Source: Halobellus inordinatus
GTDB lineage: Archaea > Halobacteriota > Halobacteria > Halobacteriales > Haloferacaceae
Direction of reading: 5' to 3'
NCBI RefSeq assembly: GCF_024464655.1
Contig: NZ_JANHAV010000004.1
Span: 62,001 to 126,000, forward strand
Length of the DNA stretch: 64,000 nt
Part shown: positions 26,343 through 44,556 of the stretch, one piece after another
Layout: each line of letters begins with the position of its first letter
Numbering within the stretch: position 1 is the first letter of the stretch
Notes under the pieces: generated by a model
What the model was told of the DNA's origin: nothing
Seen by the model: the letters and a program-made list of their open reading frames with translations, nothing else
The model's database searches: none
Translations under genes and position numbers: made by a program

Positions 26343-26487
26343 GGTTAGAGTGGCTCACAGAGCGGTTCTATGTTGGAGATGGCGAACATCAGGACGATTT
26401 CACGGAACTGTCGATACCAGCCGAGCGCTCGCACGGCATAAGTGGTCAGCGCTATGTTTGTGCTTTCAGAGCGCGTAAGGGAACGTA

Positions 26488-27193: not shown

Positions 27194-27663
27194 ACACACC
27201 TCTATCGATGTGTTTTGAGTCAGTTCACTGCTATCCAAGAAGGCCAGCCCATCGAGAGCACAGACACCCCTCTATCGATGTGTTCCATAGGATAGCGTGA
27301 GGCGTCTGATTGGAAGAACACCGATGACGATGTGGTCGAATGGAAGTAAACCCCGGTTCACCCGCTCAGTTTACCGTTTAGTGGAATTTCCCGATTACCG
27401 AGCAAGCGATAGGTAAAAACTCGATAGGAGAAGACTAAGCCAACACATCGAACACATCGATAGAGGTGTGTGTGAGTGTGTTCTAGAAAACTAGAAGAGA
27501 ACAAATAGAAATTAGCTCTTTCTATGAGATACGATTCAGGGATCTAATCAGGTTCAGGCGCGAAATCAGGGAAAGAGATCGCCATTCTGATGATTGACCA
27601 CAGAGCTTCTCTCGAGTAACCCCCCTCCCTACCGAAACGACGAACACATCGATAGAGGGGTGT
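27194..27663. repeat. Origin 1: four upstream ORB-like repeats
   Basis: Copies of ACACCCCTCTATCGATGTGT lie at 27194-27213 and 27264-27283 (forward) and at 27452-27471 and 27644-27663 (reverse). The forward and reverse pairs face each other. The stretch at about 27478-27550 between the two reverse copies is A/T-rich and may be the unwinding site. Pairing with the downstream Orc1/Cdc6 gene makes this a probable replication origin. Confidence 0.75.
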
Positions 27664-27817
27664 GTCTCTGGATCGACCGAATTACATAACACTTCGTCGG
27701 GCGTCTGGGGATTCGATCGGCAGCTCACGGTGGAATTTTAGAATTTGAGCAGATGGACAATCTGACGCGTATGATCACACTTCGATAAGGGTGAGAATCT
27801 TTTTGTAACTTGGCTGT

Positions 27818-29296
27818 ATGGCCTCCCATATGGGAACTGACGACTCCGAGCATTCTCGGGATGATTCGAGAATACCGGAGGATGAGACTACCACGAACAC
27901 CGATATCGGTTCTGAACTTACTGAACCGGAACTCTCGACGGATCAACTGGATTCCACGCTCCCCGAGGATACCTCGGCTTCCACGTCGTCTTCTGAGGAG
28001 TCGACGCAGTCGATTGAGGATATGCTGCTGGAATTCGACGACCAGGAGGGGCTCATTCGTGACCGATCGCTTCTGGATCCGAACTACGTCGTTGAAGAGG
28101 ACCGTATCGTCGGTCGGGACGACCAACTGCAGGAAGTAACCAAAATGCTTCGTGTCGCCCTCGGTGATAACCGACCGCCGAATCTCTTCCTGTACGGTCC
28201 CTCGGGAACGGGCAAATCACTCATTACGAAGGCCGTCTGTAACAACATCAGCCGCATCTGTGACTCGCGCGACATCCGGTTCGGGACCATCGAAGTCAAC
28301 TGCCAGGATCTCGATACCCTCGGAGTTGCAGTGTATGAACTCGTCCAGCAGGCTGCAGACGAGGCCCAGGTCGATATCCAGGTCCCGAAACACGGCGTCG
28401 CAACCAAAGAAAAGTGGGATGAACTCTACCGAATCGTCAACGAGAATTTCGATTCGGTGGTGTTCGTACTCGACGAACTAGATATGCTCGTGGGACGCCG
28501 AGACAAACAAGAACCGGCGTTTTCGCGACTCCTGTATCAACTCTCCCGCGCGGGCGCGAACAACGAATTGAGTGCCCACGTCTCCGTCGTTGCTATCTCG
28601 AACGACACGAAAATGATGGATGCCGTTGGCAGCCGCGCCGTCAGTTCGTTTACGCCAGAGGACGTCCATTTCGACGACTACGATGCGAATCAGCTGCAGT
28701 CGATTCTTCGTCGGCGAGAGGACGCATTCTACGAAGACGTCGTAGATGCTGACGTAATTCCGCTCGCAGCAGCCTTTGCCGCTCAGACACACGGTGATGC
28801 ACGGAAAGCAATCGATTTGATCCGCGTTGCTGGCGAACTCGCCGAACGAGAGGGTGACGCACGCGTTCGTGAAGAGCACGTACGATCCGCACAGGCAAAA
28901 GTGGAAAAGAACCGCGTTCTCGAAGTCGTTCGCGGCATCAGCACTCAAAAGAAGTTATGCCTCTATGCGACAGCAGCTGTCGCCGCACAATCTGATAATA
29001 GTTCAGCTCGGAGTACGACTGGGTATCGAGTTTATCAGTTTCTCACGGAGGCAATCGATGCCGATCAGTATCACCAAGAAACCTATGTGAACAAAATGAA
29101 AGAACTGACCACGTATTCTCTCGTGGACTTCGAGCGGCGAAGCCACGGCCCTAGTTCCGGGATGTTTCTGGAGTTTCAGTTCGCTGAGCAACCAGACACG
29201 ATTCTGGAAACGCTTCGCGAGGACTCTCGACTTGAGATGGTCTCTGAAGACGAGGTCAACTCTGTCGTCAACGCACAGATTAGAAACCAGACGTAG
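27818..29296 (+). CDS. Orc1/Cdc6 replication initiator, copy 1
   Basis: A 492-residue AAA+ protein. The first 85 residues are acidic and low in complexity. Walker A is GPSGTGKSLITK near residue 127, Walker B VVFVLDELDML near 214, and a sensor-1 type SNDTK lies near 266. The C-terminal 120 residues form the winged-helix domain that binds origin boxes. It is flanked by four repeats of one type on each side, which fits an initiator with its own origin. It is only distantly similar to copy 2 and longer at the N-terminus. Confidence 0.92.
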   Translation: MASHMGTDDSEHSRDDSRIPEDETTTNTDIGSELTEPELSTDQLDSTLPEDTSASTSSSEESTQSIEDMLLEFDDQEGLIRDRSLLDPNYVVEEDRIVGRDDQLQEVTKMLRVALGDNRPPNLFLYGPSGTGKSLITKAVCNNISRICDSRDIRFGTIEVNCQDLDTLGVAVYELVQQAADEAQVDIQVPKHGVATKEKWDELYRIVNENFDSVVFVLDELDMLVGRRDKQEPAFSRLLYQLSRAGANNELSAHVSVVAISNDTKMMDAVGSRAVSSFTPEDVHFDDYDANQLQSILRRREDAFYEDVVDADVIPLAAAFAAQTHGDARKAIDLIRVAGELAEREGDARVREEHVRSAQAKVEKNRVLEVVRGISTQKKLCLYATAAVAAQSDNSSARSTTGYRVYQFLTEAIDADQYHQETYVNKMKELTTYSLVDFERRSHGPSSGMFLEFQFAEQPDTILETLREDSRLEMVSEDEVNSVVNAQIRNQT

Positions 29297-29334
29297 CCGA
29301 ACAGAGCAATTGTACGGAAGACATCCCACACCGG

Positions 29335-29626
29335 ACACCCCTCTATCGATGTGTACAGCCTGTCTGGTAGCAAATCCCAATTGATAGTCGGTTTATTTCA
29401 CTCAGCGAATGTGTCTTGTCCGAGCTATGTTCCTGACACCCCTCTATCGATATGTATGCCGTGCTTAGACCGTCTGAAATGCAGTATTTTGAGGGGCGAC
29501 TTGGTGATGGTAGGGCTTCTCAATCTCGTGTTGTAACAGTATCAGCAGATGCTTCCGTTTCGAGTACACCCCTCTATCGATGTGTTCGAGAGAATATTGT
29601 CCGCATACACCCCTCTATCGAAGTGT
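29335..29626 (+). repeat. Origin 1: four downstream ORB-like repeats
   Basis: Forward copies lie at 29335-29354, 29436-29455 (one change), 29566-29585 and 29607-29626 (one change). All match ACACCCCTCTATCGATGTGT and are in the same direction as the initiator gene. No gene is visible between 29297 and 29650. Confidence 0.75.
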
Positions 29627-29848
29627 ACATCTTAGATCTGGAGCTCCTATTGTCGAGAGGAACTCCGTCGAACTCTATCAGGACCTCGTCCGCCAGCAGT
29701 CCACATCGATTTCTCCGAGCTGCTGACCGGCAAGACACTCAAGGTGCTGTACTACCTCGACCGGCCGCGAACCGTCTCTGAGATCGCCAACCCGAGCGAC
29801 AACTACCGCAACACGGTTAACCGCGTCCTCAAGCGATTTCGTGACCGT

Positions 29849-31308
29849 AAATCGCCTCGGAGTCAAGCCCCGAGGCTTTCGCGTGGACTCCCATTCTATG
29901 CCTCGGTAGAGGCAGGGGGTACGTACTCCCCACTCACGTTCAACATCCCGCGATTCAAGCGCACATCTACGGGTGCGCCTCCGTCGTTTGCGTTTTGCCG
30001 ACGACGGAGATACTGCAAGCCGATATTCTTGGACGCGTTGTAGTCCGCGTGGTTCTCATACCCACACTTCTGACACTCGAACGACTCCCCGTTACGGTTA
30101 TCGTCGTGGGTAAACCCACACGTCGAGCAACGCTTCGACGTGTTGCGCGGGTCAACCTGTACGACTTCAACACCGTGTTCTTTGGCTTTGTATTCGACGT
30201 ACTTGGAGAGGCGTCGAAAGGCCCAGACGTGTTGCCACGTCGCCTCGGGGATGTTCTCCCGAATATGGGTCAAGTCCTCGAACACGATATGAGAACAGTC
30301 GTGTTCGACGGCCTCCTCGATGAGTTCGTTTGCCACCGAGTGTAGGAATATCTCGAACCGCCCGTACTCTTTCTGCCCAACACTCTCGATGTTCTCGTGG
30401 GCGTAGCGAGAGCCACACTGTTGAAGCGACCCGCGACGCTTTTCGTACTCTCGTCGCCAGTGGTTGAACTCGTCTGCCGACCAGAATCGTCCCGTCGAAG
30501 CGACGGCGAGGTTGTTGACGCCTAAATCCACACCAAGGACTGTTCTGTGCTTGGACTCGGATTCAGACGCTTCCTCGTCGGGTTCGACTTTCCGCATTGA
30601 GGCGTGGAGATACCAGTCACCGTCACGGTACTGCAAGTGCGCCATCCGAAACTCGAAGTCCTCGTCAGAGACGTACTTCGTCGGCGGTGTCTCCGAGTCG
30701 TCGGGGAGGATGTAATCGCACTCAACGCGCCCGTCTACAGTCGAGAGGGAAACGTGGTCACGGTGGAACGTCGCACTCCGCTTGTCGTAGACTGCGCTAT
30801 CGGCAGAAAAGTACGGTTGCGACGTGTTCTCGCCACGTTTAAGACGCGAGACCCCGCTTTTGACGGCTTCAACAGCCCTGCGAATCCCTTTCTGGACGAG
30901 GTTGGCGGTGAGGTCGGTTTCGTCGCGGAGTCGGTCGTAGAGAGCGCGTTCGGCTTTCGCTTTCGAGGTGACGTGGTATCCGTCGTCGTCACCAGAAACG
31001 CGAGATGTTTCTGGTTGGCAGCCAGATTCCTCTGGAATCTGGCGACGCCCGTGCCAGCACCACTCGCTTGCGGTGTTGGCGCAGTGTTTGAACTGCTCGA
31101 CAGTCTCTCGAAGAGAGGCGTCGGCTCCTTTGGGAGTGTCGAGTTTGATGACGGCGGTACGACGGTATTCCACTGTGCTTTCACATATACGGCAGGTGTT
31201 ACTTATACGTTGGGGGAGTCGGCCTGCCGTCGTCGCGTGGTTTGTGTCATCGGTTGTCGGCTTCCTCCCCGACCTCAAGGGTCGGGGCATCCGCCTTGTA
31301 CCGCCTGT
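29849..31308 (-). mobile_element. IS605-type element with tnpB only (copy 2)
   Basis: About 1460 bases inserted in the HTH gene between gaccgt and gaactc. The right end (at 29849) has the hairpin cctcgg-agtcaag-ccccgagg; the left end (near 31265-31290) has cctccccgacc-tcaa-gggtcgggg. There is no tnpA, so it would need one in trans. Boundaries follow from restoring the host gene. Confidence 0.7.
29896..31173 (-). CDS. tnpB: TnpB RNA-guided nuclease, copy 2
   Basis: The GTG at 31173 (VEYRRTAVIKLDTPKGAD) is the usual TnpB start; the frame upstream belongs to the host gene. It is 425 residues long. RuvC residues are in VLGVDLGVNNLAVAS near residue 205, HIVFEDLTHIRENI near 295 and NHADYNASKNIGLQY near 385. 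The zinc ribbon is CSTCGF...CQKCGY. All catalytic residues are present. It is closer to copy 3 than to copy 1. Confidence 0.92.
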   Translation of the reverse strand: MEYRRTAVIKLDTPKGADASLRETVEQFKHCANTASEWCWHGRRQIPEESGCQPETSRVSGDDDGYHVTSKAKAERALYDRLRDETDLTANLVQKGIRRAVEAVKSGVSRLKRGENTSQPYFSADSAVYDKRSATFHRDHVSLSTVDGRVECDYILPDDSETPPTKYVSDEDFEFRMAHLQYRDGDWYLHASMRKVEPDEEASESESKHRTVLGVDLGVNNLAVASTGRFWSADEFNHWRREYEKRRGSLQQCGSRYAHENIESVGQKEYGRFEIFLHSVANELIEEAVEHDCSHIVFEDLTHIRENIPEATWQHVWAFRRLSKYVEYKAKEHGVEVVQVDPRNTSKRCSTCGFTHDDNRNGESFECQKCGYENHADYNASKNIGLQYLRRRQNANDGGAPVDVRLNRGMLNVSGEYVPPASTEA

Positions 31309-31793
31309 GAACTCGTCGGGACGGACGACGGCCACTACGAGTTCAACGCCGATTTCGACCGCCTCCACGAGTTCGCCCGGGAACTCACATACCATCTGCA
31401 TCGCCAACGCTTCGAAGCCGTTGCCCCGAAGGGTACGATTCTCTGGGAGGACTACGACGAATTCCTCGCCCAGACCGAGACGGAGATCGACGCGGAGGCG
31501 TTCCACGAAACCGGCCTCGCTCGGTTCGCGGTCTTCGACCTCCAGTTCCTGCTTACCGGCCACCGCTACTACGTCTACTCCGAGGACCTCGACTGTCTCG
31601 CCGGCGGAGCTCTGCTGTCACACGCCGCTGATCGACGACGGCAGCCGCCACCAGTCGTACTGTCTCCTCCTGCTCAGTCACGTTGACGTCGACCGGCTCC
31701 CGGACTGGGACGAGTTCCAGGAGCTGGCGGCTGATTACGAGGTGCGACCGTCCTGAGACCGAACATCGTCACCAGCCGTGCCGTCTGCCAGCG

Positions 31794-32106
31794 TCAGTTC
31801 GGATGGTAGAGAGTCGTTACTGTATCGAGTCGAGAGACATCCTCGACAGCGTCAAAATCGTCGTCAAACGCATACAGGTGGCCGAGCCCCTCGGTTTGCA
31901 GATACGCGACAATGCAGGCATCGACGAAGGAGAGCGGTTCGTGTTGGCGAAAGAGGGCCTTCCCTGTCGCGAGGGCGTCGGTGGTGAGTGAGTCGATGTG
32001 GAAGCGGGCGTTTTCTTCGATTCGATCGAGGAGATCCACGGCTGCGTCGTGGCCAGCGTGGGTACAGAGGTCGTGCGCAGCAGTCGAGATCGATAATTCG
32101 ATTGGC
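31794..32106 (-). pseudogene. PIN-domain (VapC-like) toxin remnant
   Basis: From a GTG at 32039 the frame reads MDLLDRIEENARFHIDSLTT and HEPLSFVDACIVAYLQTEGL to a stop at 31794. Coding sense extends in frame upstream to about 32106 (PIELSISTAAHDLCTHAGHD) but no start codon is found. FVDACI and FDDDFDAV are the central and last acidic motifs of PIN ribonucleases. The first Asp region is missing, so it is probably inactive. Confidence 0.65.
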
Positions 32107-32143
32107 TGAAAACGGCCACCACACGCCGGAAACGCAGTTGGGC

Positions 32144-33175
32144 CTACTGTCGGGTAGTCGTCGAATCCACCTGCTCGATTGTCGACTCAACGAACGATTG
32201 TAGCGCTCTTTGGACGCGGTCGGCATCCGGACCGACACCCGCGAGGTGATCGGCATCGACGCGGACGAACTCGACGTCTGGCAGCGCTTCGACCACAAAC
32301 TCGGCGTGAGAAATCGGGACGGCCGCGTCGAACTCCCCGTGAAAAACCAAGACCGGACATTCAATTGTCTTGTAGTCGACAACGGGGAGCTCGCGACACC
32401 AGCGTTCGTCGTTAAGCGTCCCGTCGATGCGGGCACTGGCGGGGAAGATGGTCGGGACGAAATCGAGGTCTCTCCTGTGTTGTGCAGGGTATGTCAGGAT
32501 GTATTCGACGTAGGTTTCGAGGTCTTTGCCCTCCAGCGTCGAGAACTCGGCGTGCATATTCTCGATGAATCGATCGGGCATAAACCGGTGGAGGAAGGCG
32601 AGCAGACCGGAGCGAATGTCAAGTACCGGCGTCGAGGTGAGCAACGGGTCAAGGATCGGGTTTCCCGTGTCGTACATTCGGTCGTCGATCTCCGTTGTGA
32701 TTGCCGATCCCAAGACCAGCCCCGCGACCCGCTCGGGATAATCAGCGGCGAGTTGGAGGGCGACCGGGCCCCCACAGGAGATCCCGACGACGATCGGGCG
32801 TTCCACGTCGATGGCGTCAAGGAGCGCCACGAGGAGGGCGGCCTGGTCCTCAAAGGACCGGTGGTCGTCAAGCGGCGTCCGGAGAAAGCCTGGCCGGGAG
32901 GGTGCGATGACTTCAGCATTGTCTCCAAATACCCCGTCCAAGAGGAGTCCCTGGTCGTAGCCGCCCGGTGCTCCGTGAAGTACCAGAACGGGGTACCCCG
33001 AACCCCGCCGGGCGACCTCGACGACACCCCGATCTGTTTCGACGAGTTCACTCCCGGCCGATAGCTCCGCGAGTCGGCCCCGTTTCCAGCGCCAGAACGC
33101 ACCGCCCGCCGCGCAGAGGAGCAAGCCCGCACCGATTTTAATCGACCGTCTCAAGTTTCGGCGCATACGTGTCAA
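32144..33175 (-). CDS. Membrane-anchored alpha/beta hydrolase
   Basis: A 343-residue protein. A basic start and one hydrophobic segment (IKIGAGLLLCAAGGAFW, residues 12-28) suggest an N-terminal membrane anchor. The hydrolase domain has HGAPGGYDQG (oxyanion loop) near residue 65 and the nucleophile elbow VVGISCGGP near 128 with Ser as nucleophile. VFHGEFDAAVP near 285 gives the acid, and DADHLAG near 315 the His. Substrate unknown; family members include esterases and haloperoxidase-like enzymes. Confidence 0.85.
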   Translation of the reverse strand: MTRMRRNLRRSIKIGAGLLLCAAGGAFWRWKRGRLAELSAGSELVETDRGVVEVARRGSGYPVLVLHGAPGGYDQGLLLDGVFGDNAEVIAPSRPGFLRTPLDDHRSFEDQAALLVALLDAIDVERPIVVGISCGGPVALQLAADYPERVAGLVLGSAITTEIDDRMYDTGNPILDPLLTSTPVLDIRSGLLAFLHRFMPDRFIENMHAEFSTLEGKDLETYVEYILTYPAQHRRDLDFVPTIFPASARIDGTLNDERWCRELPVVDYKTIECPVLVFHGEFDAAVPISHAEFVVEALPDVEFVRVDADHLAGVGPDADRVQRALQSFVESTIEQVDSTTTRQ

Positions 33176-33733
33176 TACGATTGCACAGGTATTGGTTCTG
33201 AGAGTTTCAACAAAGCCAGGAATCGATATGTGACGGGCGTCCGTACACAGAATGATGCCGGCGCAGGACAGCAGTGATCACGCGATCTCGTGCTGTCTTG
33301 CGCCTTTCTCTGGTCATCGACCTACGAAAGCGGCATCTGTTTGTAGTTGCTTCAGAAGCGCGCTCCTCCCCTCCCTACTCACTCGCTTTGCTCGTTCCTT
33401 GAGGAAGAGGACCCGCGTACCTACAGTGGACGTGCCGGTCGAGTTCCTCTTGCCACGTCCGGTAGCCCGCCACCCGGATTGCCTCGGGGGACTATCGCCC
33501 AATGAGGACGAGGCAATCGGAGCCGTCGAGAAGGCACGCGACGTCGGCTATGACAAACTGCCCGTCAACGCGATGTTCGCAGGTACACCAACGAGATCAG
33601 ATCAACCGACGATCAGTTCGCGCGGGAGGGTCAGTCACCTTCGAGTCGGTTGCAGTCGACGCTATCGAGACGTCGCCGCGACCGCAAATTGCCGAGCAGT
33701 CCTGCCAATGAGCGCCGACGTGGCGAGCACGCT
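33176..33733. other. Intergenic with IS605-type end relic
   Basis: No convincing gene. Positions about 33358-33412 (gcgctcctcccctccctact and onward to ttgaggaagaggac) nearly repeat 39193-39248, the left end of tnpB element 3, so this is a relic of a related element. A frame through 33480-33600 (NEDEAIGAVEKARDVGYDKL) looks protein-like but has no start. Confidence 0.45.
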
Positions 33734-34027
33734 TCAGAAATCCTGATCCAGTGGGTGGCCCGCCCCAAGGTGTTCCTGTATGACTTTATCATCTGGATTG
33801 AGGACGACGTATATCGTCTCCTCTTCAGAATGCACAGCTTCACCGATATCATACTGAAGACACAACTCGTCCGCTAACTCACTACGGGTTCCCGGATATT
33901 CGACAACAATCCGTTTTGTATCTTCGTCAGCGGCCTCTAATCTGGCGTGGGACTGTTCTACGTCCTCGAGAAAAGCGCTAAAGTCTTTCGTAGGCGCAGT
34001 CGGGATGGCGATGGGACGATCTGTCAT
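33734..34027 (-). CDS. Small hypothetical protein
   Basis: The ATG at 34027 (MTDRPIAIPTAPTKDFSAFL) gives 97 residues; the longer frame to 34069 has an unlikely Trp-rich leader. The protein is acidic and mixed alpha/beta, ending EHLGAGHPLDQDF. No motif recognised. It lies 38 bases after the HEAT-repeat gene on the same strand and may share its transcript. Confidence 0.55.
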   Translation of the reverse strand: MTDRPIAIPTAPTKDFSAFLEDVEQSHARLEAADEDTKRIVVEYPGTRSELADELCLQYDIGEAVHSEEETIYVVLNPDDKVIQEHLGAGHPLDQDF

Positions 34028-34065
34028 CGAGAGGTAACACCAGGTTCTATGCAAAGCCCACCAGT

Positions 34066-34824
34066 TCACGACAGCTCCTGACCGCAGTTACGACAGAAGT
34101 TCGGTAGGGGCTCGGTAGTGATCTCTCGCCCGCACTCTGGGCAGAACGTCGATGTGGTCGCCCCTTGTGATCCGGGTTCCACTGCGCTTGTCGATGCTCG
34201 GGCTTCCGCCATCGCCTCAACGGCGAATTGAAGCGACTCTTCGATCTCGTCGTCGCCAATGTGGCGTTCAAGTTCAGCTGCGTCCTGCTCGTCAATTAGT
34301 CGTGGGGCTGTCTGCGCGATCCGTCCAAGCGTTCGTGCCATCTGGGCACGGGCATCGGGAAACTCTTCGGAACCAATTCCGTGCACGAGCGTTCGGACAA
34401 CTCCGGTGTTGGCGAGGACTTCAGGGGATTCAGTGCCGATAGCACCGAGTACCTCGGCCGCGTTCGCGCGGATCCACTCGTTACGATCGTTGAGGGCCTG
34501 CACAACGTTGGTGATCGCAGTCGTCTCAGCAATCCGAGCAGGCGAATGCTGTGCAAGAGTGCCAATGGTATCCAGTGTAAACGTTCGGACGTTCACGTCA
34601 CTGTTCTGCAACGATAAAAGGACAGACCCGATGGTATCGGTGACGAGCTCGGGCTGCTCGGTGGCAACGATCGATAAGGTCTGCGCGGCGGCGGTCTGCG
34701 TGTCTCCAGAAGTCTGCCTGGCCAGCGTAGCGAGTACCTCAACGTCCTCTTTGTCGGCATTCGCGGGCGATCTCTCGACTGTATCAAGCGTCTGTCGCTG
34801 CCGAGCAGTGAGCGTGTCGGGCAT
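34066..34824 (-). CDS. HEAT-repeat protein with C-terminal zinc ribbon
   Basis: A 252-residue protein. Residues about 20-200 are helical repeats of about 38 residues (LLSLQNSDVNVRTFTLDTIG, VVQALNDRNEWIRANAAEVL, LVHGIGSEEFPDARAQMART), typical of HEAT/Armadillo scaffolds. The end carries a zinc ribbon, CPECGREI...CRNCGQELS. Probably a protein- or nucleic-acid-binding scaffold; partner unknown. Confidence 0.75.
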   Translation of the reverse strand: MPDTLTARQRQTLDTVERSPANADKEDVEVLATLARQTSGDTQTAAAQTLSIVATEQPELVTDTIGSVLLSLQNSDVNVRTFTLDTIGTLAQHSPARIAETTAITNVVQALNDRNEWIRANAAEVLGAIGTESPEVLANTGVVRTLVHGIGSEEFPDARAQMARTLGRIAQTAPRLIDEQDAAELERHIGDDEIEESLQFAVEAMAEARASTSAVEPGSQGATTSTFCPECGREITTEPLPNFCRNCGQELS

Positions 34825-34834
34825 TCAGCTACTG

Positions 34835-34914
34835 ATAGGGGTTATCGTAAGTCGTCATAGATTTCTCGCCGGACAGTACGGCGAGAATCTCCGAACAGTG
34901 ACGATAAGCCCTAT
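34835..34914. mobile_element. 80-bp palindromic MITE-like element, copy B
   Basis: The reverse complement matches copy A (7961-8040) at 72 of 80 positions, and both are exactly 80 bases. The ends ataggg(g)ttatcg and cgataa(g)ccctat are inverted. The inner hairpin tctcgccgg...cggcgaga is retained. It lies 10 bases upstream of the HEAT-repeat gene start, where it may affect that gene's promoter. Confidence 0.8.
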
Positions 34915-35011
34915 GAGTTGGTACAGCGACACTTTAAGCAAATGGAGCAGTCAGATTCTCGGGCCGCATAGCGCGCCGAGATCCAAACACAGGAATGTGA
35001 ACTACCCCTGA

Positions 35012-35806
35012 CTACTCACTTGTTTCCCACTCTGGACGTGGCGTCGGCGACGGGAGTTCATCGACCGCAGTTCGAAGTTCGTCTTCTGTCGTCCACGTGA
35101 AGCACCGATCGTGGAGTTCGAATTTGCGGAATTTGTTGAGATGAACCCAACTGTACGTTGCTGGTTCTGCTCCATCATCCACCCGGTCCTCGATCACACT
35201 CCGAATCTTCTGTTCGTCGATGTCGAGACCGCTATCTTGTGCGCGATCAACGAGCGATTCGATCTTCGATTGGACCTCATCTTCCGACAAATCGTCTGCG
35301 AACGCAATCTCGAGGGCGGCCTGAATGACGTGCTGTTTCGATTTAAGATTCGTATCAGTTACCCACAGATAATCACGCGGGAACACGTACGACTTGCGGA
35401 AATACGGTGGGTCATCAATTTCGCCCAATTCAGGAGCTTCACCACCGCTTTCCTTCTCGAAGACACCGACAATATAGTCTGTATAGGTCGCGAGCAACAA
35501 AAACATCACATCGAACGTATTGAGCCGGTCTGTCGGGAGCTCGAGGAGATCACCCATAATGAATGGATAGGCACCGAGCTGCTTCGTGAGTTCGTTCTGG
35601 ACGGCGCGAAGCCGGCGGATATAGGGGTCGCGATAGCTCCCCAGGATGAAATACGACGTTCGCTGACTCCAGAGATACGGCAATTCACGCTGGGTGAACC
35701 GCCAGATCTCTCGTTTCTCTGCTGGCTCAAGTGCGATGCCCCCGATGGCCTCGTGAACGACAGTCATAATATCCGCAGCATCCGGCGGAGGGCTTGGATC
35801 GGTCAT
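35012..35806 (-). CDS. Hypothetical protein with possible nucleotide-binding N-terminal fold
   Basis: The ATG at 35806 (MTDPSPPPDAADIMTVVHEA) gives 264 residues. Residues about 45-150 show a strand-helix pattern starting SYFILGSYRDPYIRRLRAVQ and later GVFEKESGGEAPELG. This loosely recalls TIR-like or deoxyribosyltransferase-like proteins, which also have an ILGSYR-type first strand. That similarity is by eye only. The C-terminal 100 residues are charged and helical. It diverges from a winged-helix regulator with a gap of 115 bases, so they may be functionally paired. Confidence 0.55.
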   Translation of the reverse strand: MTDPSPPPDAADIMTVVHEAIGGIALEPAEKREIWRFTQRELPYLWSQRTSYFILGSYRDPYIRRLRAVQNELTKQLGAYPFIMGDLLELPTDRLNTFDVMFLLLATYTDYIVGVFEKESGGEAPELGEIDDPPYFRKSYVFPRDYLWVTDTNLKSKQHVIQAALEIAFADDLSEDEVQSKIESLVDRAQDSGLDIDEQKIRSVIEDRVDDGAEPATYSWVHLNKFRKFELHDRCFTWTTEDELRTAVDELPSPTPRPEWETSE

Positions 35807-35921
35807 TAACTCTCGGTTCAAACCACTGCAGCTTATCTCTTCTGAACCACTTTGGCTTTTTCTGGCTTTACCAACTTGGACAATCCTAACTGTTATAGCA
35901 CCGTCCGGCATACCCCTACGT

Positions 35922-36410
35922 ATGAGCGAAACCGACACCGGCGCGGCCGATGCGGGGCCGTTTGCGGAACAGCAGCGGCTGTTCGAGCTGCTGTCCCAAG
36001 ATACGCGCCATCTCATCATTCAGGAGCTGCTGGGCCATCCCGCTCATCTGATGTCGCTCGCTGAACTCGAGTATATGACTGGGAAGAGTCAGGCGGCTAT
36101 CAAAGATCAGCTAGAGACGCTGATCGACGCCGGACTCCTCGCACGCTACACGTACGAACCGAGCGAAAAGAAACGTGATCTCCCCGCCCAGTTCTACGGG
36201 CTCACGGAACGAGGTGTCGAGGTACTCCACGACTACAAGTATCTCCGTGGCCTCCCGGTTGCTCGCGCGCTCTACGAAAACACGCGCAAGACCGAAAAAA
36301 TCGAGCGCCACGAATCGGCCCCCCGACCGGAGCTTCCTGATGCTGTTGCGGAGGCCCTCGAGTTCGACGAACCCGATCTCGACGCCGTTGATGTCGGCAC
36401 AGACCGATAG
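35922..36410 (+). CDS. Winged-helix (ArsR-like) transcription regulator
   Basis: A 162-residue protein. Residues about 20-100 form a winged helix: LFELLSQDTRHLIIQELLGH, then AELEYMTGKSQAAIKDQLET as the recognition region, and YGLTERGVEVLHDYKYLRGL as the wing and following helix. No metal-binding Cys cluster is present. It diverges from the 35012-35806 gene, and autoregulation of the shared 115-base gap is likely by analogy. Confidence 0.8.
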   Translation: MSETDTGAADAGPFAEQQRLFELLSQDTRHLIIQELLGHPAHLMSLAELEYMTGKSQAAIKDQLETLIDAGLLARYTYEPSEKKRDLPAQFYGLTERGVEVLHDYKYLRGLPVARALYENTRKTEKIERHESAPRPELPDAVAEALEFDEPDLDAVDVGTDR

Positions 36411-36572
36411 TTCGTCGTCGAACAGCACCGTTCTCAACACCGGAGAGTCAAATTCTCCCTGTACTGTTGGTACGCGTGCTTTCTCTGGAAAAGTCAACGC
36501 TGCCATTCCACCGAATCGTTTTCACGACACGCTTTAGCGAAGATATATTTCCGAGTAATTGGAAGATGTAAT

Positions 36573-37775
36573 ATGAGTTCTTCTATGATCTGCTTTCGGT
36601 GTGGAGAGCACTACGACGACGAGACACGCGTGCGATGTGTATGCGGTGAACCGCTCTGGTTCGACACTCCTAGTACGGACTTTACCTGGTCAGACAGTCC
36701 AGAGATGGGGGGTATGTGGCGCTATGAGGCGTTACTCCCGGTCGAGAAGCCCAACGGAATCGCGCGCGCTGCGGGCGGGACCCCGCTACTCAGAAGCGAG
36801 GCACTTGATGACGCTGCGGGGTGTCGAGTGTACGTCAAAGATGAGGGCGAAAACCAGACTGGCGCGTACAAGGACCGAGGGAGTGCGGTGGCGGTTCCAC
36901 ACGCCATCGAGAAAGGGGCCGATGTCATCGGTACCATTTCGTACGGAAATATGGCGATAAGCACTGCCGCTCACGCAGCCAGTCTGGGCCGAGAGTGTGT
37001 CGTATTAGTCCCCGACGAGATCTCGTCGGTCCGGTTAGAGCTTATTGCACAATATGAGCCGACGATTGTGCAGGTCAGCGGCGACTACGGAGCCCTGTAT
37101 TCAGATGCGTTATCACTGCCGGAATCACTCCCGATATCGATTCTCGTCAGCGATGCGCCAGCTCGCATTAGCGGGTACAAAACAGCAGTGTTCGAGATAT
37201 ACGAGTCACTCGCTCCGGAGACGCCTGATGCGATCGTGCTGCCGGTGAGTTCGGGAGGGTTTGCGTCAGGGATCTGGCGTGGACTTCGAAACCTCGAGTC
37301 GATCGGCTTACTTAGCGAGCTACCGCGGCTGTATCTCGTCCAGACCGCCGCTGCCGATCCGCTGACACAAGCCTTCGAAACTGGTGCGACCGAACCAACG
37401 GCCCTCTCACCCGACGAAACTGGCGAGACAATTGCCCACTCGATCGGAAATCCGGATCCACCAAGCGGCACTCGTGCGCTCGCGGCTGTCCGCGAAACGA
37501 ACGGGGCGGTGGTGTCGGTCTCCGATGAGGAGATTCAGACAGCCCAACGACGGTTCGCTGTTGCTGGCGGCTTCTCTGTCGAGCCGGCGGCAGCAACGCC
37601 GTTGGCGGGCGTCACACGTCTTTCCGAGCGCGGTGAAATTACGTCCGATGAATCGGTCGTGTTAGTGCCGACTGGGACGGGATTCAAAGAACTTGGGACT
37701 GGCAACGCGTCGGTCCAAACTGAGATCACAAGTAGAGCGGACCTGCCGGAGTTACTCGATTCTATACTTGAGTAG
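36573..37775 (+). CDS. Threonine-synthase-like PLP enzyme
   Basis: A 400-residue fold-type II PLP protein. An N-terminal zinc-ribbon-like segment (CFRCGEHY...CVCGEPLW) is typical of archaeal threonine synthases. The PLP lysine is in ENQTGAYKDRGSAV near residue 100, ISYGNMAIST binds the substrate and VLPVSSGGFASG holds the PLP phosphate. Threonine synthase converts O-phosphohomoserine to threonine. The TGAYKDRG box in place of the common SFKDRG suggests a divergent paralogue, so a different amino-acid substrate is possible. Confidence 0.78.
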   Translation: MSSSMICFRCGEHYDDETRVRCVCGEPLWFDTPSTDFTWSDSPEMGGMWRYEALLPVEKPNGIARAAGGTPLLRSEALDDAAGCRVYVKDEGENQTGAYKDRGSAVAVPHAIEKGADVIGTISYGNMAISTAAHAASLGRECVVLVPDEISSVRLELIAQYEPTIVQVSGDYGALYSDALSLPESLPISILVSDAPARISGYKTAVFEIYESLAPETPDAIVLPVSSGGFASGIWRGLRNLESIGLLSELPRLYLVQTAAADPLTQAFETGATEPTALSPDETGETIAHSIGNPDPPSGTRALAAVRETNGAVVSVSDEEIQTAQRRFAVAGGFSVEPAAATPLAGVTRLSERGEITSDESVVLVPTGTGFKELGTGNASVQTEITSRADLPELLDSILE

Positions 37776-37839
37776 AATCAAGCTGAACGCTTCAACATTT
37801 GGAGCACTAACAGTTGTTGGACTGTTTGTCGTTGGGGAA

Positions 37840-39260
37840 TGTTGATGGCATCTTCGACACTCGTCATGTCAACTACCCCGCCCTACTCGCGCTGACGCGC
37901 TCGTTGAGGACGGGGCTTGTCCGTGAACTCGGCCTCGAACCCTTCCGGGTAGGCGGTAAATCCGCGCTTCGGTGTCACTGTTCCAGACTTGAGGGCAAGT
38001 TGACTGTTGCCCGTCCGCCGAGACGACTGTTGGCCTCGACGGACATACCGCAGTCCGATGTTCTTCGCCGCGTTGTAATCCGCGTTCGCTTCCAACCCAC
38101 ACTTCACGCACCGGAAGTCGTTTCGAGTCGGGCGGTTCTCATCCGCCGTGAACCCACACTCGGCGCACCGCTGAGACGTGTACGCCGACCCCACTTGCGT
38201 CACCGAGATACCCTCTGCCTCGGCTTTGTACGCTACTTGCTCGTAGAGCGTTCTGAACGCCCACTTGTGCCCCCACGACGCACCCGTTCGGTCGCGGATG
38301 TCCGTCAAGTCCTCGAACGCAATTATGTCACATTCATAGCGGAGTGCTTCATCTACGATCGCATTGGACGCTTGGTGTAGCACATCCCGGACGTAGCGAA
38401 GTTCACGGCCACTCGACCGTTCGAGTGTCCGGTGGGCGCTTCGCGTCCCGGTCTGTTGGAGTCCGGCACGTACCTTCTCAAACTCACGGAGGTCGTGGGT
38501 TAGCTTCCGCCCGCTGAAGAAGTACGCCGTACTGGTGACGGCGAGGTTTTCGATCCCGAGATCAACCCCGAGGACCGTTCCGTCCTCGGCGGTGTTCCGC
38601 TCGGCGTCGGTCTTGGGTCGACGAAAGCCGATATGCAAGAAGTACTCGCCGTCACGGGCGGTGAGCGTGCTTTCCGTGACACTCCACTCGTCGGAGTCAA
38701 GGTACTTGTGTTGGTAGCCGTCGTCGGCATCGGGCAGCGCAAGGTCACACCGGACGCGACTCTCCGTGGTGGAGAGCGACACCGTGTCGTCGTCGAACAA
38801 CGTCATAGTCCGCGTATCGTATTTCACGGTCGGTGCGGTGAAGGTGGGCTTGCTGACCGTCTTGCCTTCCGAGCGGCGTTCGAGACAACCGGTGATGGCT
38901 TGGGCGGCTTGGTGGGTGGCGAGAATCGTGTGCTGACTCCCGAGGCCGGTGTGTTCGCGTACGTCGTCGTAGGCGAGGGGCTGGACGTCGCTTTTGGCGT
39001 TGCAGACGTTCCACGCCATATCGGTGGCGAGTTGGCAGCCACGCTTCCACTCGGAGATGGTTTCTTCGAGGAGGGCGCGTTGCTCGTCCGTAACTTCGAG
39101 ACGAGTGATTGCCGTCCGACGCACGTAGTCGTCTGCCACAATTTCAATGTAGCAAGATGACTACTTATAATTAGGTGGTTGTGATTTATACGAACGCGCT
39201 CCTCCCCTCCCTACTCGCTCCCTCGGGTCGCTCCTTGAGGAAGGGGACTCCGCGCTACCG
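37840..39260 (-). mobile_element. IS605-type element with tnpB only (copy 3)
   Basis: The tnpB gene lies between end hairpins: at about 37874-37917 (ccccgcc...ggacgggg, overlapping the 3' end of tnpB) and at about 39196-39248 (ctcccctccctactcgctcc...ttgaggaagggga). No tnpA is present. Outer boundaries are approximate. Confidence 0.6.
37883..39139 (-). CDS. tnpB: TnpB RNA-guided nuclease, copy 3
   Basis: A 418-residue TnpB. RuvC residues are in VLGVDLGIENLAVTSTAYFF near residue 190, IIAFEDLTDIRDRTG near 280 and NADYNAAKNIGLRYVRRG near 370. The zinc ribbon is CAECGFTADENRP...CVKCGLE. Full length and apparently active. The last codons (RPQRARQRE) are encoded within the end hairpin, where the guide RNA scaffold would also be made. 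Confidence 0.92.
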   Translation of the reverse strand: MADDYVRRTAITRLEVTDEQRALLEETISEWKRGCQLATDMAWNVCNAKSDVQPLAYDDVREHTGLGSQHTILATHQAAQAITGCLERRSEGKTVSKPTFTAPTVKYDTRTMTLFDDDTVSLSTTESRVRCDLALPDADDGYQHKYLDSDEWSVTESTLTARDGEYFLHIGFRRPKTDAERNTAEDGTVLGVDLGIENLAVTSTAYFFSGRKLTHDLREFEKVRAGLQQTGTRSAHRTLERSSGRELRYVRDVLHQASNAIVDEALRYECDIIAFEDLTDIRDRTGASWGHKWAFRTLYEQVAYKAEAEGISVTQVGSAYTSQRCAECGFTADENRPTRNDFRCVKCGLEANADYNAAKNIGLRYVRRGQQSSRRTGNSQLALKSGTVTPKRGFTAYPEGFEAEFTDKPRPQRARQRE

Positions 39261-39797
39261 CTTCAGTTGAACAACCGCTCAGTAAACGACCAGATTTGGA
39301 TTATGCTCCAGACTGTCATATACAGCGCCCGTATTATACCAATCGTGAAGGGTGACTGTGAGTCGACGCCGCGTGAGCTACTTGCCGATTTACGGTGGTG
39401 TCGATACGGTGAATCTCGCGGATACGACCCTCAGCTTCCAGTCCTGGAATGCAACTGGTGGTGGACCTTCATCGCGAATGTGTCAGGGGAATGTGAACGA
39501 GTTTCGATCCAAATACGCCAGAAATCTGTCGACTCAGTGTTCGTCACTCCGCAGCCTCACAGACTCTTCCGGACCTCCACTTAAATATGTTATAAGGTTA
39601 AGATACAACTCAATGCGGGTACGGGTCGTCAACTGTGTCGCATGGTAGCGAGAACCCGCGCTGACGACCGAGACAGAGCGACCGAACTAGAACTCTACCT
39701 CCCCGCCAGGGCCACCTCGCCGGTCGAAGCCGGTCGATTCGAGCGTCTCTGGGGACAGCTGTTCAACAACGGCGTAGGACCACAGACATAGATAATA
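39261..39797. other. Intergenic, no gene recognised
   Basis: Short frames here lack motifs or haloarchaeal codon bias. An A/T-rich segment near 39583-39606 may hold a promoter. The rest looks like decayed flank of the tnpB element. Confidence 0.4.
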
Positions 39798-41165
39798 ATG
39801 CCTGGAAATCAACACCATCCGAACTACCCCAGCGTCGACCAATCGGACCGCACCATTCCCAGAAATCTGCGTCAATCAGGCGACGCAGACATCAATCTCG
39901 TGATTTCGAACCGAGTCCGGAAGTCGCCATTCTGGCATCTTTCCGTCAAGGAAGGCTGTCACGAGGCGACGGTGTACAACCATATGTATCACCCTCGGGC
40001 GTTCATCGACCCCGAAGACGGAGGGTCGGAAGCCGAGTACGAACTGCTGGTCAACGACGTAGCGCTGTGGGACGTCGCAGTCGAACGCCAGATTCGTGTT
40101 AAAGGGCCCGACGCAGAGGCATTCGTCAACTACGTCATCACGCGGGATGCGACTGACATCGAGCCGATGCGTGGCAAGTACGCCATCTGTTGCAACGATG
40201 ACGGTGGCATCCTCAACGATTTCGTCCTGTTGCGTCCCGACGACGACGAGTTCTGGTTTTCCATCGCCGATTCGGACCTACTGCAGTGGTTGCAAGGGGT
40301 CACAATTGGGAACGACTTCGAGGTCGACGTCGACGAGATCGACGTCTCGCCGATGCAGATTCAGGGCCCGAAATCGCCCGACGTGATCGGGTCTCTCATC
40401 GATGACGCGGTCGAAGACGTACCGTACTACGGACTGTTGGAAGCGACTATCAACGACGTCCCGGTGTTGGTGAGCCAAACGGGCTTCTCCGGAGAGGCAG
40501 GGTTCGAGATATACGTCCGTGAAGCAACAACGAACGCCGAAGCAGTGTGGAACCCGGTACTCGAAACGGTCAAAGACCACGGTGGTGCCGCGGCGCCAGT
40601 AAACGGTCGTCGACGGATCGCTGCCGGAATCCTGTCGTTAGGGCAGGATATGGACCACGAGACGTCGCCTTTCCAGGTCAACCTCGGCTATCAGGTTCCC
40701 GACGATAAGGACGCGGACTACGTCGGCAAAGCCGAACTGGAACGTCAAAAGGAAGCCATCGAAAACGGCGAGTTCCCGTTCACGCACAAACTGGTTGGTC
40801 TGAAAATGGCAGGCGACCCGATTCTGGAATGGGCCTCGGACTACTGGCTCATCTCGGATCCAGAGACGAGCGACGAATGTGGCTACCTGACGTCGGCGGG
40901 GTGGAATCCGGATCTCGAGGCCAACCTCGGCCTCGGATTCGTGCCAGCAGAGAAACTACAGGCCGCGACCGACGTACCGCTCGACGACTCGATATACGAC
41001 GAGGACCTCGACCTGGAGTTCGAGGTACACCTCCCGGACGAGTACGCAGCGGAGCCCGGCGAACCAGTCTATGCGACGCTGGTGAAGGTGCCGTTCAAAG
41101 AGTCGGTCAACCCCAGTGCTCGCGAACAGGCCAAGATTCACGCCCGGGACGACGTGGACGAGTGA
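39798..41165 (+). CDS. DmdA-like tetrahydrofolate-dependent demethylase (GcvT family)
   Basis: A 455-residue GcvT-fold protein. The stretch VRKSPFWHLSVKEGCHEATV then YNHMYHPRAF, and LWDVAVERQIRVKGPDAEAF, FSIADSDLLQWLQG and DVSPMQIQGPKSPDVIG, resemble dimethylsulfoniopropionate demethylase DmdA more than glycine cleavage T-protein. Such enzymes move a methyl group from a sulfonium, methoxy or amine compound to tetrahydrofolate. The C-terminal 100 residues form the barrel seen in the family. It stands alone, next to no glycine cleavage gene. DMSP, methoxy-aromatic or methylamine substrates are all possible. Confidence 0.75.
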   Translation: MPGNQHHPNYPSVDQSDRTIPRNLRQSGDADINLVISNRVRKSPFWHLSVKEGCHEATVYNHMYHPRAFIDPEDGGSEAEYELLVNDVALWDVAVERQIRVKGPDAEAFVNYVITRDATDIEPMRGKYAICCNDDGGILNDFVLLRPDDDEFWFSIADSDLLQWLQGVTIGNDFEVDVDEIDVSPMQIQGPKSPDVIGSLIDDAVEDVPYYGLLEATINDVPVLVSQTGFSGEAGFEIYVREATTNAEAVWNPVLETVKDHGGAAAPVNGRRRIAAGILSLGQDMDHETSPFQVNLGYQVPDDKDADYVGKAELERQKEAIENGEFPFTHKLVGLKMAGDPILEWASDYWLISDPETSDECGYLTSAGWNPDLEANLGLGFVPAEKLQAATDVPLDDSIYDEDLDLEFEVHLPDEYAAEPGEPVYATLVKVPFKESVNPSAREQAKIHARDDVDE

Positions 41166-41246
41166 GGTCGTCTGCGCTGAATGACATCCCTCCAAGAATG
41201 TTATTTTATTGTGAGGAATTAAGTTCGACCGCAGTGAAGTTCCGGT

Positions 41247-41876
41247 ATGGTTCTCGCCCTCCACCACACTAAGCTTGAGCCTGTCAGCCGATTCTTCGGC
41301 GCGCTATCGGTCTTCACCGCTAGTGTCGCTGCGGGATGGCTCTGGAGTCCAAATCCGTTCAGGGATGTATTCTTCAGCGGGATCGTGCTGCTTGCCGTCC
41401 TTTTCAGTCTCCTTGGAATGTTCGGAGTATGGACGAATCATACTCCGATCGCTTGGATGGCCTCACTCTTGTTACTCGGGTTCACGGTTTTCGGAATGTG
41501 GTCGGCCGGACTGCTGTTCGTTCCTGCGGCGATATTTTTGGTTATCGCGACGATCGCTTCCCATCGAACCGGACCTCGGAGAACAGTCCAGCACGCGATA
41601 CGTGCCAACCCACCGACTGTCGCAGAACTCGTTTTGAAGGCAGTAGCCGGTGCCAGCGCCGGATTCGCCGGCGTGTGGATTACTTATTTCGGTGCCGTCA
41701 GACAGGAATTGTTTGGGGCGTGTGCGGCCGAAACGTTGTCGTGTGCGCTCACGGAGATGCATTGGGGGGCGGTCGGTCTGACGCTGTTTGGATTGGCAAC
41801 TATCGCTGTCGGCGGGTGGGCCCTCTGGAAGCAGATCTACATCGCTCGTGTGCTACGTCTCACTCGTTCAGGGTAG
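41247..41876 (+). CDS. Haloarchaeal membrane protein, unknown function
   Basis: A 209-residue protein with about five hydrophobic segments: residues about 10-27, 40-57, 62-95, 128-150 and 170-195. It ends in a basic tail, KQIYIARVLRLTRSG. No family motif recognised. A TATA-like ttattttattg lies about 36-46 bases before the ATG. It ends just before origin 2. Confidence 0.65.
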   Translation: MVLALHHTKLEPVSRFFGALSVFTASVAAGWLWSPNPFRDVFFSGIVLLAVLFSLLGMFGVWTNHTPIAWMASLLLLGFTVFGMWSAGLLFVPAAIFLVIATIASHRTGPRRTVQHAIRANPPTVAELVLKAVAGASAGFAGVWITYFGAVRQELFGACAAETLSCALTEMHWGAVGLTLFGLATIAVGGWALWKQIYIARVLRLTRSG

Positions 41877-42012
41877 CAGAGTACGGATCCAACTCGCGAC
41901 ACACCACAACTCACACCCGTCGCTTTTCTACGGTTCCTTTGCTAACGCTAGAGAGGTATTTTTAGCATCGAAACGGCAGAGGTGTCGGAGCCAACCCACA
42001 ATGATCCCTCAG

Positions 42013-42632
42013 ACACCACCTTGCAAGTGTTCTGCAGTTGTGGAGGATCGGGGTACTCGGGACTCAAACCGTGTTGGTTCGCTCGATTCCAAAAGAACAC
42101 TTGCAGAGAGGTGTTCCACAGCTCCTAGAGGCAGTACCAATCCCAACTCTCTGAACTCCGCTGAGGCTATCACAATCAGTTACAGGCCTCGAAAAGCCGA
42201 TTGATCAAATATTTCGAGATCGTTCACACGGGATCCCTAGTACCTACACACACACACCACCCTGCAAGTGTTCTGAGCGTCGGCAATGAGATACCAGATC
42301 ATATAGACAGAGACCAGTAGCATATAAATAAAATGGTTATCAGTTGTCTATATTCATATCGCACTGGTATAGACGCTTCTACGTTTTCTTTCTCTAGCTA
42401 TCATTCCATTATTTACTTTTTCAAAAAGATTTATATTATATTATAACGTGATATTCTAGTCAGTTGTAGCAGCAGTAGGCAGTAACTCTAGCTAGCGGAA
42501 AGGCCACTCCACGTTGAGAATGACGAGGAACTGCCCCCTCACACGCGAACTCTAAGAACACTTGCAGGGTGGTGTGTGTAGGTCCGAAAAACCGAGAGAC
42601 GCAAAACACTTGAAACACTTGCAGCCTGGTGC
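42013..42632. repeat. Origin 2: five upstream ORB-like repeats and A/T-rich stretch
   Basis: Matches to GAACACTTGCAGGGTGGTGT lie at 42013-42032 (reverse), 42095-42114, 42254-42273 (reverse), 42556-42575 and 42613-42632 (weaker). A strongly A/T-rich zone at about 42300-42460 (for example ttatattatattataac) between the third and fourth copies is a good candidate for duplex unwinding. Together with the initiator gene 39 bases further on this forms a probable origin. Confidence 0.78.
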
Positions 42633-42670
42633 TGGGTTTTATAACGACAGACGCTAAAACTGGGAGTAAG

Positions 42671-43999
42671 ATGGTACAGACAGACGAGAATCCGTTCGAT
42701 GGGCGGGACGAGATTTTCGCGGCCAAGCAACCGCTCAAGAAAGACAGCTTCGACCCCGAGACGATCTTCCACCGAGATGAAGAAATCGACCTCTATGTGA
42801 ACGCCCTCCAGGACGTCGTGGTCGGCCACGAACCGAACAACGTCTTCGTGTATGGGCCAACGGGAGTCGGCAAGACAGCGGTGACCAAGTGGGTCCGGGA
42901 TATGTTACTCGAGAAAGCAGACGAGCAGAACGTCGACCTTGACATCCTCGGCCCTGTCAACTGCCGGAACTACAAATCGTCCTACCGGCTCGTCAGCCGA
43001 CTCGTAAACGAGTTCCGGACTCCCGACAATCAACTCCCGAAGAGTGGATATAGCACGGACACTGTCTTCGAGTTCCTGTACGAAGAAATCGAAGACGTAG
43101 GCGGGAACGTCCTCATCATCCTCGACGAGATCGACAACATACCGCCGGACGCCCGCAACGACTTCCTCTACGACCTCCCACGTGCAGAGGCGAGTGAGAA
43201 CGCCGCGATCGACGAGGCGTGTATCGGCCTCATCGGTATCTCGAACGACCTGAAGTTCGTCGACTCGCTGGAGCCCAAGGTCAAAAGCACGCTCGGTGAG
43301 CGGGAGATCAAGTTCGGACCGTACGATGCCAACGAACTCCGTGACATTCTCGGGTATTATGCCGACCTCTCTTTCCGCGATGGCGTCTTGAGCGACGACG
43401 TGATCCCACTCGCTGCGGCATTCACCGCCCAAGAGCGGGGTGACGTTCGCCAGGGGCTCAAGATCCTCGAAAAAGCCGGCGAATACGCGCGGATGGACGG
43501 AAAATCGTCGGTCACTGAGGACCACACTCGCCGGGCTACCGAAACGATCGAGACGGACGAGATTCTCGACTCGTTCGACAACGACCTCACTCGACAGCAG
43601 GCACTCGCATACATTGCGACGACGCTCGCGATCATCGAACCCGAACACGAGGCTCGCACGAAGCGGATTTACACGCTGTACTCGTCGATTGCCGAGGCTG
43701 TGGGTAGCGACCCGCGCTCCGAGCGGAAACTCTACGAATACCTCGATCAGCTTTCGATGCAGGGATTCGTCAGGTCTGAAGATCACAATCAGGGACGCCG
43801 TGGCGGTCGGCGATTCATCTACGAGGTAACCGACGACCCTGTCGACATCATCAACGCTGTCGTAAAATCCGACTATCAGGAAGCGCTTCCGAACAACGTG
43901 TGGAATATCTTGGAACACTACAAAGAAGACGAGGCAACATCTTTCGAGGCCCCTAATCCCGACGACGAGACCCAACAGCAGATCTGGCACTTCACCTAA
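42671..43999 (+). CDS. Orc1/Cdc6 replication initiator, copy 2
   Basis: The ATG at 42671 (MVQTDENPFDGRDEIFAAKQ) gives 442 residues; the longer frame from 42629 runs into the last repeat. Walker A is GPTGVGKTAVTKW near residue 62, Walker B VLIILDEIDNIP near 150, sensor 1 is in GISNDLKF near 190, and the C-terminal 130 residues form a winged helix. The repeats around it differ from those around copy 1, which indicates different DNA specificity. Confidence 0.92.
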   Translation: MVQTDENPFDGRDEIFAAKQPLKKDSFDPETIFHRDEEIDLYVNALQDVVVGHEPNNVFVYGPTGVGKTAVTKWVRDMLLEKADEQNVDLDILGPVNCRNYKSSYRLVSRLVNEFRTPDNQLPKSGYSTDTVFEFLYEEIEDVGGNVLIILDEIDNIPPDARNDFLYDLPRAEASENAAIDEACIGLIGISNDLKFVDSLEPKVKSTLGEREIKFGPYDANELRDILGYYADLSFRDGVLSDDVIPLAAAFTAQERGDVRQGLKILEKAGEYARMDGKSSVTEDHTRRATETIETDEILDSFDNDLTRQQALAYIATTLAIIEPEHEARTKRIYTLYSSIAEAVGSDPRSERKLYEYLDQLSMQGFVRSEDHNQGRRGGRRFIYEVTDDPVDIINAVVKSDYQEALPNNVWNILEHYKEDEATSFEAPNPDDETQQQIWHFT

Positions 44000-44114
44000 T
44001 TCAACGCAGAGGCCCCCAACACAAGGAGCGCGAAGCTCTCTGTCCATTTTCGTCCAGTCTCGTACTGCCTCTTCCAGGATCCCGTTACCTCCCCTGGCCC
44101 TCATCAATCACACC

Positions 44115-44461
44115 GAACACTTGCAGGGTGATGTGTCTGCGCCTCGTCGACAGACCGTTTAGAACACTTGCAGAGTGGTGTGTCTGTGCCTCGTCGACGA
44201 ATCGTCTGGAACACTTGGAGGGTGGTGTGTCTGTGTTTCGTCGATGGGCCGTTAGAACACTTGCAGGGTGGTGTGTCTGCACCTCGTCGACAGACCGTTT
44301 AGAACACTTGGAGGGTGGTGTGTCTGCGCCTCGTCGACAGACCGTTTAGAACACTTGGAGGGTGGTGTGTCTGCGCCTCGTCGACAGACCGTTTGGAACA
44401 CTTGCAGAGTGGTGTGTCTGTGTTTCGTCGATGGGCCGTTAGAACACTTGCAGGGTGGTGT
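44115..44461 (+). repeat. Eight direct ORB-like repeats with 46-47-bp period
   Basis: Copies start at 44115, 44162, 44209, 44255, 44302, 44349, 44396 and 44442. Each 20-bp box matches GAACACTTGCAGGGTGGTGT with up to two changes. The 26-27 bases between boxes are also partly conserved (gtctgcgcctcgtcgacaga), so the unit is about 47 bp. All are in one direction, downstream of Orc1/Cdc6 copy 2. Such an iteron array may bind the initiator for copy control or origin activity. Confidence 0.88.
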
Positions 44462-44556
44462 GTCTGTGGACGGGCCTCGTGATGCGAGCACCCTGTCGAC
44501 GTTCCCAAACCAACTGCTGTCCGAACCCGATGACGAGGCGAGGCGATCGGGAGCAG

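Follow-up and report, generated by a model that had tools for sequence, protein, structure and literature searches.

The 64,000-nucleotide stretch of Halobellus inordinatus DNA analyzed here (hereafter the window; positions 62001–126000 of a 301-kb contig, C18, in a genome of 3.4 Mb) very probably carries two of the three complete origin modules of a mosaic Halobellus megaplasmid, each consisting of an Orc1/Cdc6 gene and origin recognition boxes (ORBs) specific to its initiator family, and each acquired by recombination. We call the two initiators OrcB and OrcC, and their boxes b-boxes and c-boxes. The genome contains eight clear Orc genes, three of which lie here within 60 kb. The third, OrcA (contig 46477–47736, 14 kb left of the window), was overlooked in an earlier note on this DNA and has a third box family of its own, GAACAGCGGACATAGTGG. 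A search for circular ends on the contig found none, so its plasmid status is based on its colinearity with a plasmid of Halobellus limi.

Initiator genes and their boxes

OrcB (window 27818–29296, + strand; 492 aa) belongs to a plasmid-type Orc1/Cdc6 family and is full-length, matching the profile TIGR02928 (2.3e-129, 431 bits), with the domains Cdc6_lid and Cdc6_C. Eight b-boxes flank the gene between 27194 and 29626, four per side, as the earlier note had described; none are expected in shuffled sequences. Oriented with the G-rich end 3′, the upstream boxes (27194–27663) lie at 27194 (−), 27264 (−), 27452 (+), and 27644 (+), an order that most OrcB loci from other genera retain, and the four downstream boxes (29335–29626) at 29335, 29436, 29566, and 29607 all run in one direction (−). 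The most AT-rich stretch upstream of OrcB (27472–27643) is a candidate unwinding element; its best 100 bp are 64% AT, in the top 0.5% of the window, against a window mean of 40%.

OrcC (42671–43999, + strand; 442 aa from the likely ATG) is likewise full-length, matching TIGR02928 (6e-110, 368 bits), with Cdc6_lid and Cdc6_C domains, and its nearest solved chains are the archaeal Cdc6 homologues 2qby_A and 2v1u_A. The open reading frame opens at a GTG at 42629; the ATG was taken as the likely start because orthologue matches begin close to 42671. Twelve c-boxes with two or fewer mismatches, plus a degenerate one at 42613 (four mismatches), occupy 42013–44461, and the earlier count of five before the gene and eight after it holds (0 expected in shuffles). 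The upstream set (42013–42632) comprises boxes at 42013 (−), 42095 (+), 42254 (−), 42556 (+), and 42613 (+, degenerate), and an inverted pair together with a gene-proximal box was found again in OrcC relatives. Between the inverted boxes at 42254 and 42556 lies a probable unwinding element at 42300–42465 (71% AT), which ranks in the top 0.1% of 100-bp windows. Downstream, a tandem array of eight c-boxes with a period of 46–47 bp (44115–44466, + strand) is a candidate initiator-titration region: it is an ORB-rich region directly 3′ of its cognate orc gene, as is oriC2D of Haloarcula hispanica, and by this analogy its role is probably titration.

Both modules have the features of haloarchaeal ORB origins, namely an intact adjacent Orc1/Cdc6 gene encoding AAA+ and winged-helix domains, repeated inverted ORBs in the intergenic flanks, the G-rich end, and ORBs linked to the Orc family; an AT-rich element between inverted ORBs is clear at OrcC and weak at OrcB. 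Neither box family is present around the other gene, in agreement with the earlier note. The genome-wide scan with each box that the note had proposed revealed no b-boxes away from OrcB across the 3.4 Mb, and no c-boxes besides the OrcC sites and a distal group at 51274–51433. Both families are confined to this contig, and the idea that either is a general genome repeat was rejected.

The claim that the two families share no clear core did not survive, as the boxes had been written on opposite strands. When both are aligned so that the G-rich end is 3′, b (GAACACATCGATAGAGGGGTGT) and c (GAACACTTGCAGGGTGGTGTG) have a common GAACAC start and a GG.GTGT-like tail, and their centres differ. The similarity of their position weight matrices was 7.47 (null, 3.4 ± 0.8; 0 of 2000 column shuffles as high), compared with 4.4 in the orientation used earlier. 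The G-rich end reads GGGGTGT in b and GTGGTGT in c, the same frame recurs at approximately 30 Orc loci, and within each family the boxes show strict conservation of the centre. In a survey of approximately 30 Orc genes, nearly every one had a related box: those of OrcB relatives read GAACAAATCGATAGGGGTG at 67% protein identity, and TTACACATCGATGACGGGGGG and ATTTCATnTCGCACACGGGG at about 51–53%, and that of a 40% OrcC relative reads TAACACTCGCAAAGTGG.

Box and initiator families are linked across genomes. All 31 OrcB loci, from several genera, have between 4 and 11 b-boxes and lack c-boxes, and all eight OrcC loci carry c-boxes, with a single b-box at one of the eight. Among 170 genomes of the family, b-boxes occur in 46 and c-boxes in 9. 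Orc identity was correlated with box similarity (30 Orcs, rho = 0.51; 0 of 5000 permutations reached that value), and the correlation was 0.40 with close pairs left out. This is consistent with the published initiator-specific boxes of haloarchaea (PMC3528665), to which the earlier note had alluded. OrcB is a common plasmid initiator, with 146 plasmid records at E 1e-100, 30 of them at 80–90% identity; OrcC is rare, with three plasmid records and six of the 170 family genomes, this one included.

The ratio of nonsynonymous to synonymous substitution rates (dN/dS) was 0.03–0.07 when OrcB was compared with four orthologues. For OrcC and its 91%-identical nearest relative it was 0.012, a rough figure with dS near saturation. 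Box bases were identical to those of the nearest relative at 88 of 88 and 84 of 88 positions, in surroundings where the intervening DNA was 60% and 46% identical, respectively; the second pair of values refers to the downstream b-boxes. These comparisons indicate strong purifying selection on the OrcB and OrcC genes and on their boxes. Because dN/dS is low and the box bases are conserved far above their surroundings, the modules are maintained rather than decaying.

Mosaic structure of the megaplasmid

OrcA is the resident initiator of an H. limi-like megaplasmid backbone. The contig from 44.6 to 82.1 kb, OrcA included (94% protein identity), is colinear with a 398-kb plasmid of H. limi. This colinearity ends at window position 20.1 kb, where GC falls from approximately 0.66 to 0.54–0.55 (window 20100–27000), beside a TnpB gene at 21564. 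H. limi has its OrcB on another plasmid, of 208 kb. The OrcB of highest identity (92%) belongs to another Halobellus and lies on a contig of 184 kb. OrcC relatives were found only in other genera, as judged from plasmid records and the 170 family genomes. OrcB is surrounded by TnpB genes and a truncated transposase: an IS630-type (DDE_3) transposase gene covering only profile positions 71–145 of 146 lies to the left of the module (26778–27056, + strand), and the gene of a TnpB RNA-guided endonuclease to its right (29896–31563, − strand). A second TnpB gene (37883–39139, − strand) lies between the OrcB and OrcC modules. The earlier description of this DNA as full of insertion sequence (IS) elements and broken genes was confirmed for these three TnpB genes and the truncated transposase.

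The colinearity break, the presence of OrcB on other Halobellus plasmids, the occurrence of OrcC in other genera, and the nearby TnpB and transposase genes indicate that both modules are foreign to the OrcA-bearing backbone. Their acquisition by the OrcA replicon through recombination is the most likely explanation and is well supported, and the joining of Haloferax volcanii pHV4 to the chromosome through IS elements is a direct precedent (PMC7776575). The earlier proposal of two separate origins brought together by fusion or integration therefore stands as far as separately specified modules joined by recombination are concerned, but not in its premise of unrelated boxes. A simple fusion of two whole plasmids is only one possibility: little beyond the OrcB gene is common to the window and the 208-kb plasmid of H. 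limi, and the transfer of a module would explain this equally well. Tandem duplication giving recent paralogues was rejected, since OrcB and OrcC are 28% identical and the centres of their boxes differ.

The earlier note had also held that such close pairing with such different boxes was remarkable, and this we could not uphold. On plasmid pNVE414 of Natrinema versiforme, relatives of OrcB and OrcA lie tail to tail 0.6 kb apart, with a third Orc 6 kb on, and each Orc has a box family of its own; on a plasmid of Natrinema zhouii, the same two relatives lie tail to tail 0.45 kb apart. The Natrinema pairs resemble Halobellus in combining the OrcA and OrcB families with differing box families, but they are closer together than the Halobellus modules and lack OrcC. 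Among the matches listed for an even draw of 45 genomes, Orc pairs less than 20 kb apart occurred in at least five other genomes (G164, G056, G159, G009, and G006). Such a pair was also present in 10 of 15 genomes searched further, which were picked for stray boxes and are not a random sample. Close pairing is common elsewhere, and transposases near extrachromosomal origins, as well as the linkage of ORBs to Orc family, were described by Wu et al. in 2012 (PMC3528665).

A tyrosine-type integrase gene was observed at window 60608–61867, close to where the match with the H. limi plasmid weakens once more.

Distal c-boxes

Three more c-boxes, overlooked earlier, lie at 51274, 51367, and 51414 (51274–51433, + strand), with spacings of 93 and 47 bp. 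They are exact or near-exact, and are located 7 kb from OrcC, directly before a gene for a small membrane protein (51481). They retain the direction of the OrcC array and its 46.5-bp register, and the 27-bp distal spacer agrees with one of the array spacers at 15 of 27 positions (shuffling, p = 0.001; as good a match occurs in 0.5% of random 27-mers from the window). The two groups of same-direction c-boxes flank a candidate inserted cassette (44557–51122, − strand) with genes for an Mrp/NUBPL ATPase, a molybdopterin oxidoreductase, and 4Fe-4S/NrfD proteins, whose GC is 0.65 versus 0.53 directly to the left; Mrp is linked to reductase genes in a Natrinema plasmid as well. When Natrinema gelatinilyticum is compared with Natribaculum breve, the same array is seen to be interrupted in the former by approximately 1.7 kb of inserted DNA. 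Given the retained register and direction, the similar spacer, the intervening cassette genes, and this split array in a relative, we lean toward the view that the distal c-boxes are the displaced end of the OrcC array.

It is possible, though doubtful, that they are instead a functional site at which OrcC regulates the membrane-protein gene or is itself titrated. The last box stops 48 bp short of the start codon of that gene, the boxes are exact with array-like spacing, another genome (G062) has one distal c-box 12 kb from OrcC, and Orc1 regulators that are not initiators are known (PMC9738581). However, orthologues of the gene (71–78% identity) occur in four Halobellus genomes that have no c-boxes, which disfavors a conserved promoter role, and both the resemblance of the spacers and the insertion in N. 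gelatinilyticum argue for a displaced array end.

Specificity and use of the origins

For this organism we infer binding, titration, and the choice of origin as follows. Each Orc protein would probably bind only its own boxes, recognizing them through the shared frame (GAACAC start and G-rich tail) together with the family-specific centre. An Orc on inverted boxes would open the adjoining AT-rich stretch, and the boxes that follow each gene, most of all the OrcC array of eight boxes at 47 bp, would probably restrain the initiator by titration. On a replicon that carries three modules, some are likely to lie dormant; in the wild type a single origin would most likely fire, the other two being dormant or serving as back-up.

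Several observations weigh against reading OrcB and OrcC as separate origin modules with their own specificity. GC skew has no extremum at either OrcB or OrcC, and its peak close to OrcA is too slight to be taken into account. At OrcB, the most AT-rich stretch sits between two same-direction boxes rather than between inverted ones. In addition, the b/c similarity ties for the best among 267 box pairs whose Orcs are less than 36% identical; this is an unusual likeness for boxes of initiators so far apart, and exclusivity may therefore be less than strict.

Boxes also occur elsewhere apart from their initiators. In a genome of the same genus (G088, contig 4, 115000–127500), a complete set of four b-type boxes (6098–6544) is present without OrcB, approximately 1.5 kb before another Orc, which is 44% identical to OrcB and has its own boxes, an apparent initiator replacement. 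Another genome (G075, C1:1468000–1481000) has an orphan tandem of five b-boxes (6470–6782), mostly at 43-bp spacing, with no Orc nearby. In Halorubrum lacusprofundi, a single exact b-box lies next to an OrcC-type origin (G120 contig C1, L088 at 1929) and a single exact c-box next to another Orc on pHLAC01 (L077 at 3670), and in G159 c-like boxes lie next to an OrcA-type origin. An OrcC remnant was sought next to the orphan c-boxes of two genomes (G067 and G058), and none was found. We read these stray boxes and initiator-less clusters mainly as relics of module turnover.

It is rather unlikely that one or both Halobellus modules initiate no replication and are inactive remnants, transient after integration. 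The mosaic surroundings with IS elements, the initiator-less b-type boxes of G088 and G075, and the frequent dormancy of acquired origins (PMC4595724) would fit such a state. Conversely, the genes are full-length with intact domains, dN/dS is far below 1, the boxes are conserved far above their surroundings, and a dormant origin may remain competent (PMC4595724). In pHM500 of Haloferax mediterranei, one of two cdc6 origins stays silent as long as the other is present and becomes active on its removal (PMC4595724). Like the Halobellus plasmid, pHM500 carries several complete Orc–ORB origins, although it has two modules and the Halobellus plasmid three.

Cross-recognition, in which OrcB and OrcC read each other's boxes and the region is a single coupled origin instead of two independent origins, is improbable. 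The common GAACAC and GG.GTGT in the same direction, the top-ranking similarity of the boxes, and the two exact boxes in H. lacusprofundi speak for such cross-talk; but these isolated boxes aside, OrcB loci lack c-boxes and OrcC loci lack b-boxes, the box centre is strictly conserved per family, and the two proteins have diverged to the low identity given above. We give equally little credence to the bolder reading that boxes are exchanged or shared between the origins of different plasmids, which would allow an initiator to regulate or capture the origin of another.

Two origin modules with their own boxes fit known haloarchaeal behavior. The origins of Wu et al. (PMC3528665) have the same Orc1/Cdc6 gene, inverted ORBs, G-rich end, and ORB–Orc linkage as those of Halobellus, and also an AT-rich stretch, which in Halobellus is clear at OrcC and weak at OrcB. 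Halobellus differs in these particular Orc and box families and in having three modules in a span of 60 kb, although the ORB list of that study may already include the b and c families. In H. hispanica, oriC2D, an ORB array behind cdc6E, lowers origin activity, probably because it sequesters the initiator (PMC3936714). It holds 11 ORBs in 722 bp directly downstream of oriC2-cdc6E, compared with 8 in 347 bp at OrcC, and unlike oriC2D the Halobellus array, for which titration is putative, is a regular 46–47-bp tandem repeat. The literature already describes boxes specific to one initiator, titrating arrays downstream of the gene, and acquired origins that lie dormant, and separately specified origins joined by recombination fit what Wu et al. 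described in 2012–2014. The shuffling of origin modules by plasmid recombination is known in haloarchaea and is not a new system. The replicon does provide a natural case of three initiator/box systems together, and the approximately 30 initiators with their boxes form a dictionary. They make it testable which few central ORB bases set initiator identity while both ends stay constant, and how a replicon picks among competent origins after plasmid recombination.

Two further observations were made. Another Orc of this genome, on contig C17 (L029 at approximately 2100–3800), has boxes of TCACTTGAAAnAGTGGTGTGTCTG with a long GTGGTGTGTCTG tail common to the c-box array. Window 35012–36410 holds a divergent pair encoding a 335-aa protein without a Pfam match and an ArsR-annotated regulator, and DNA similar to it (approximately 87%) occurs in many haloarchaeal plasmids, in several copies per record.

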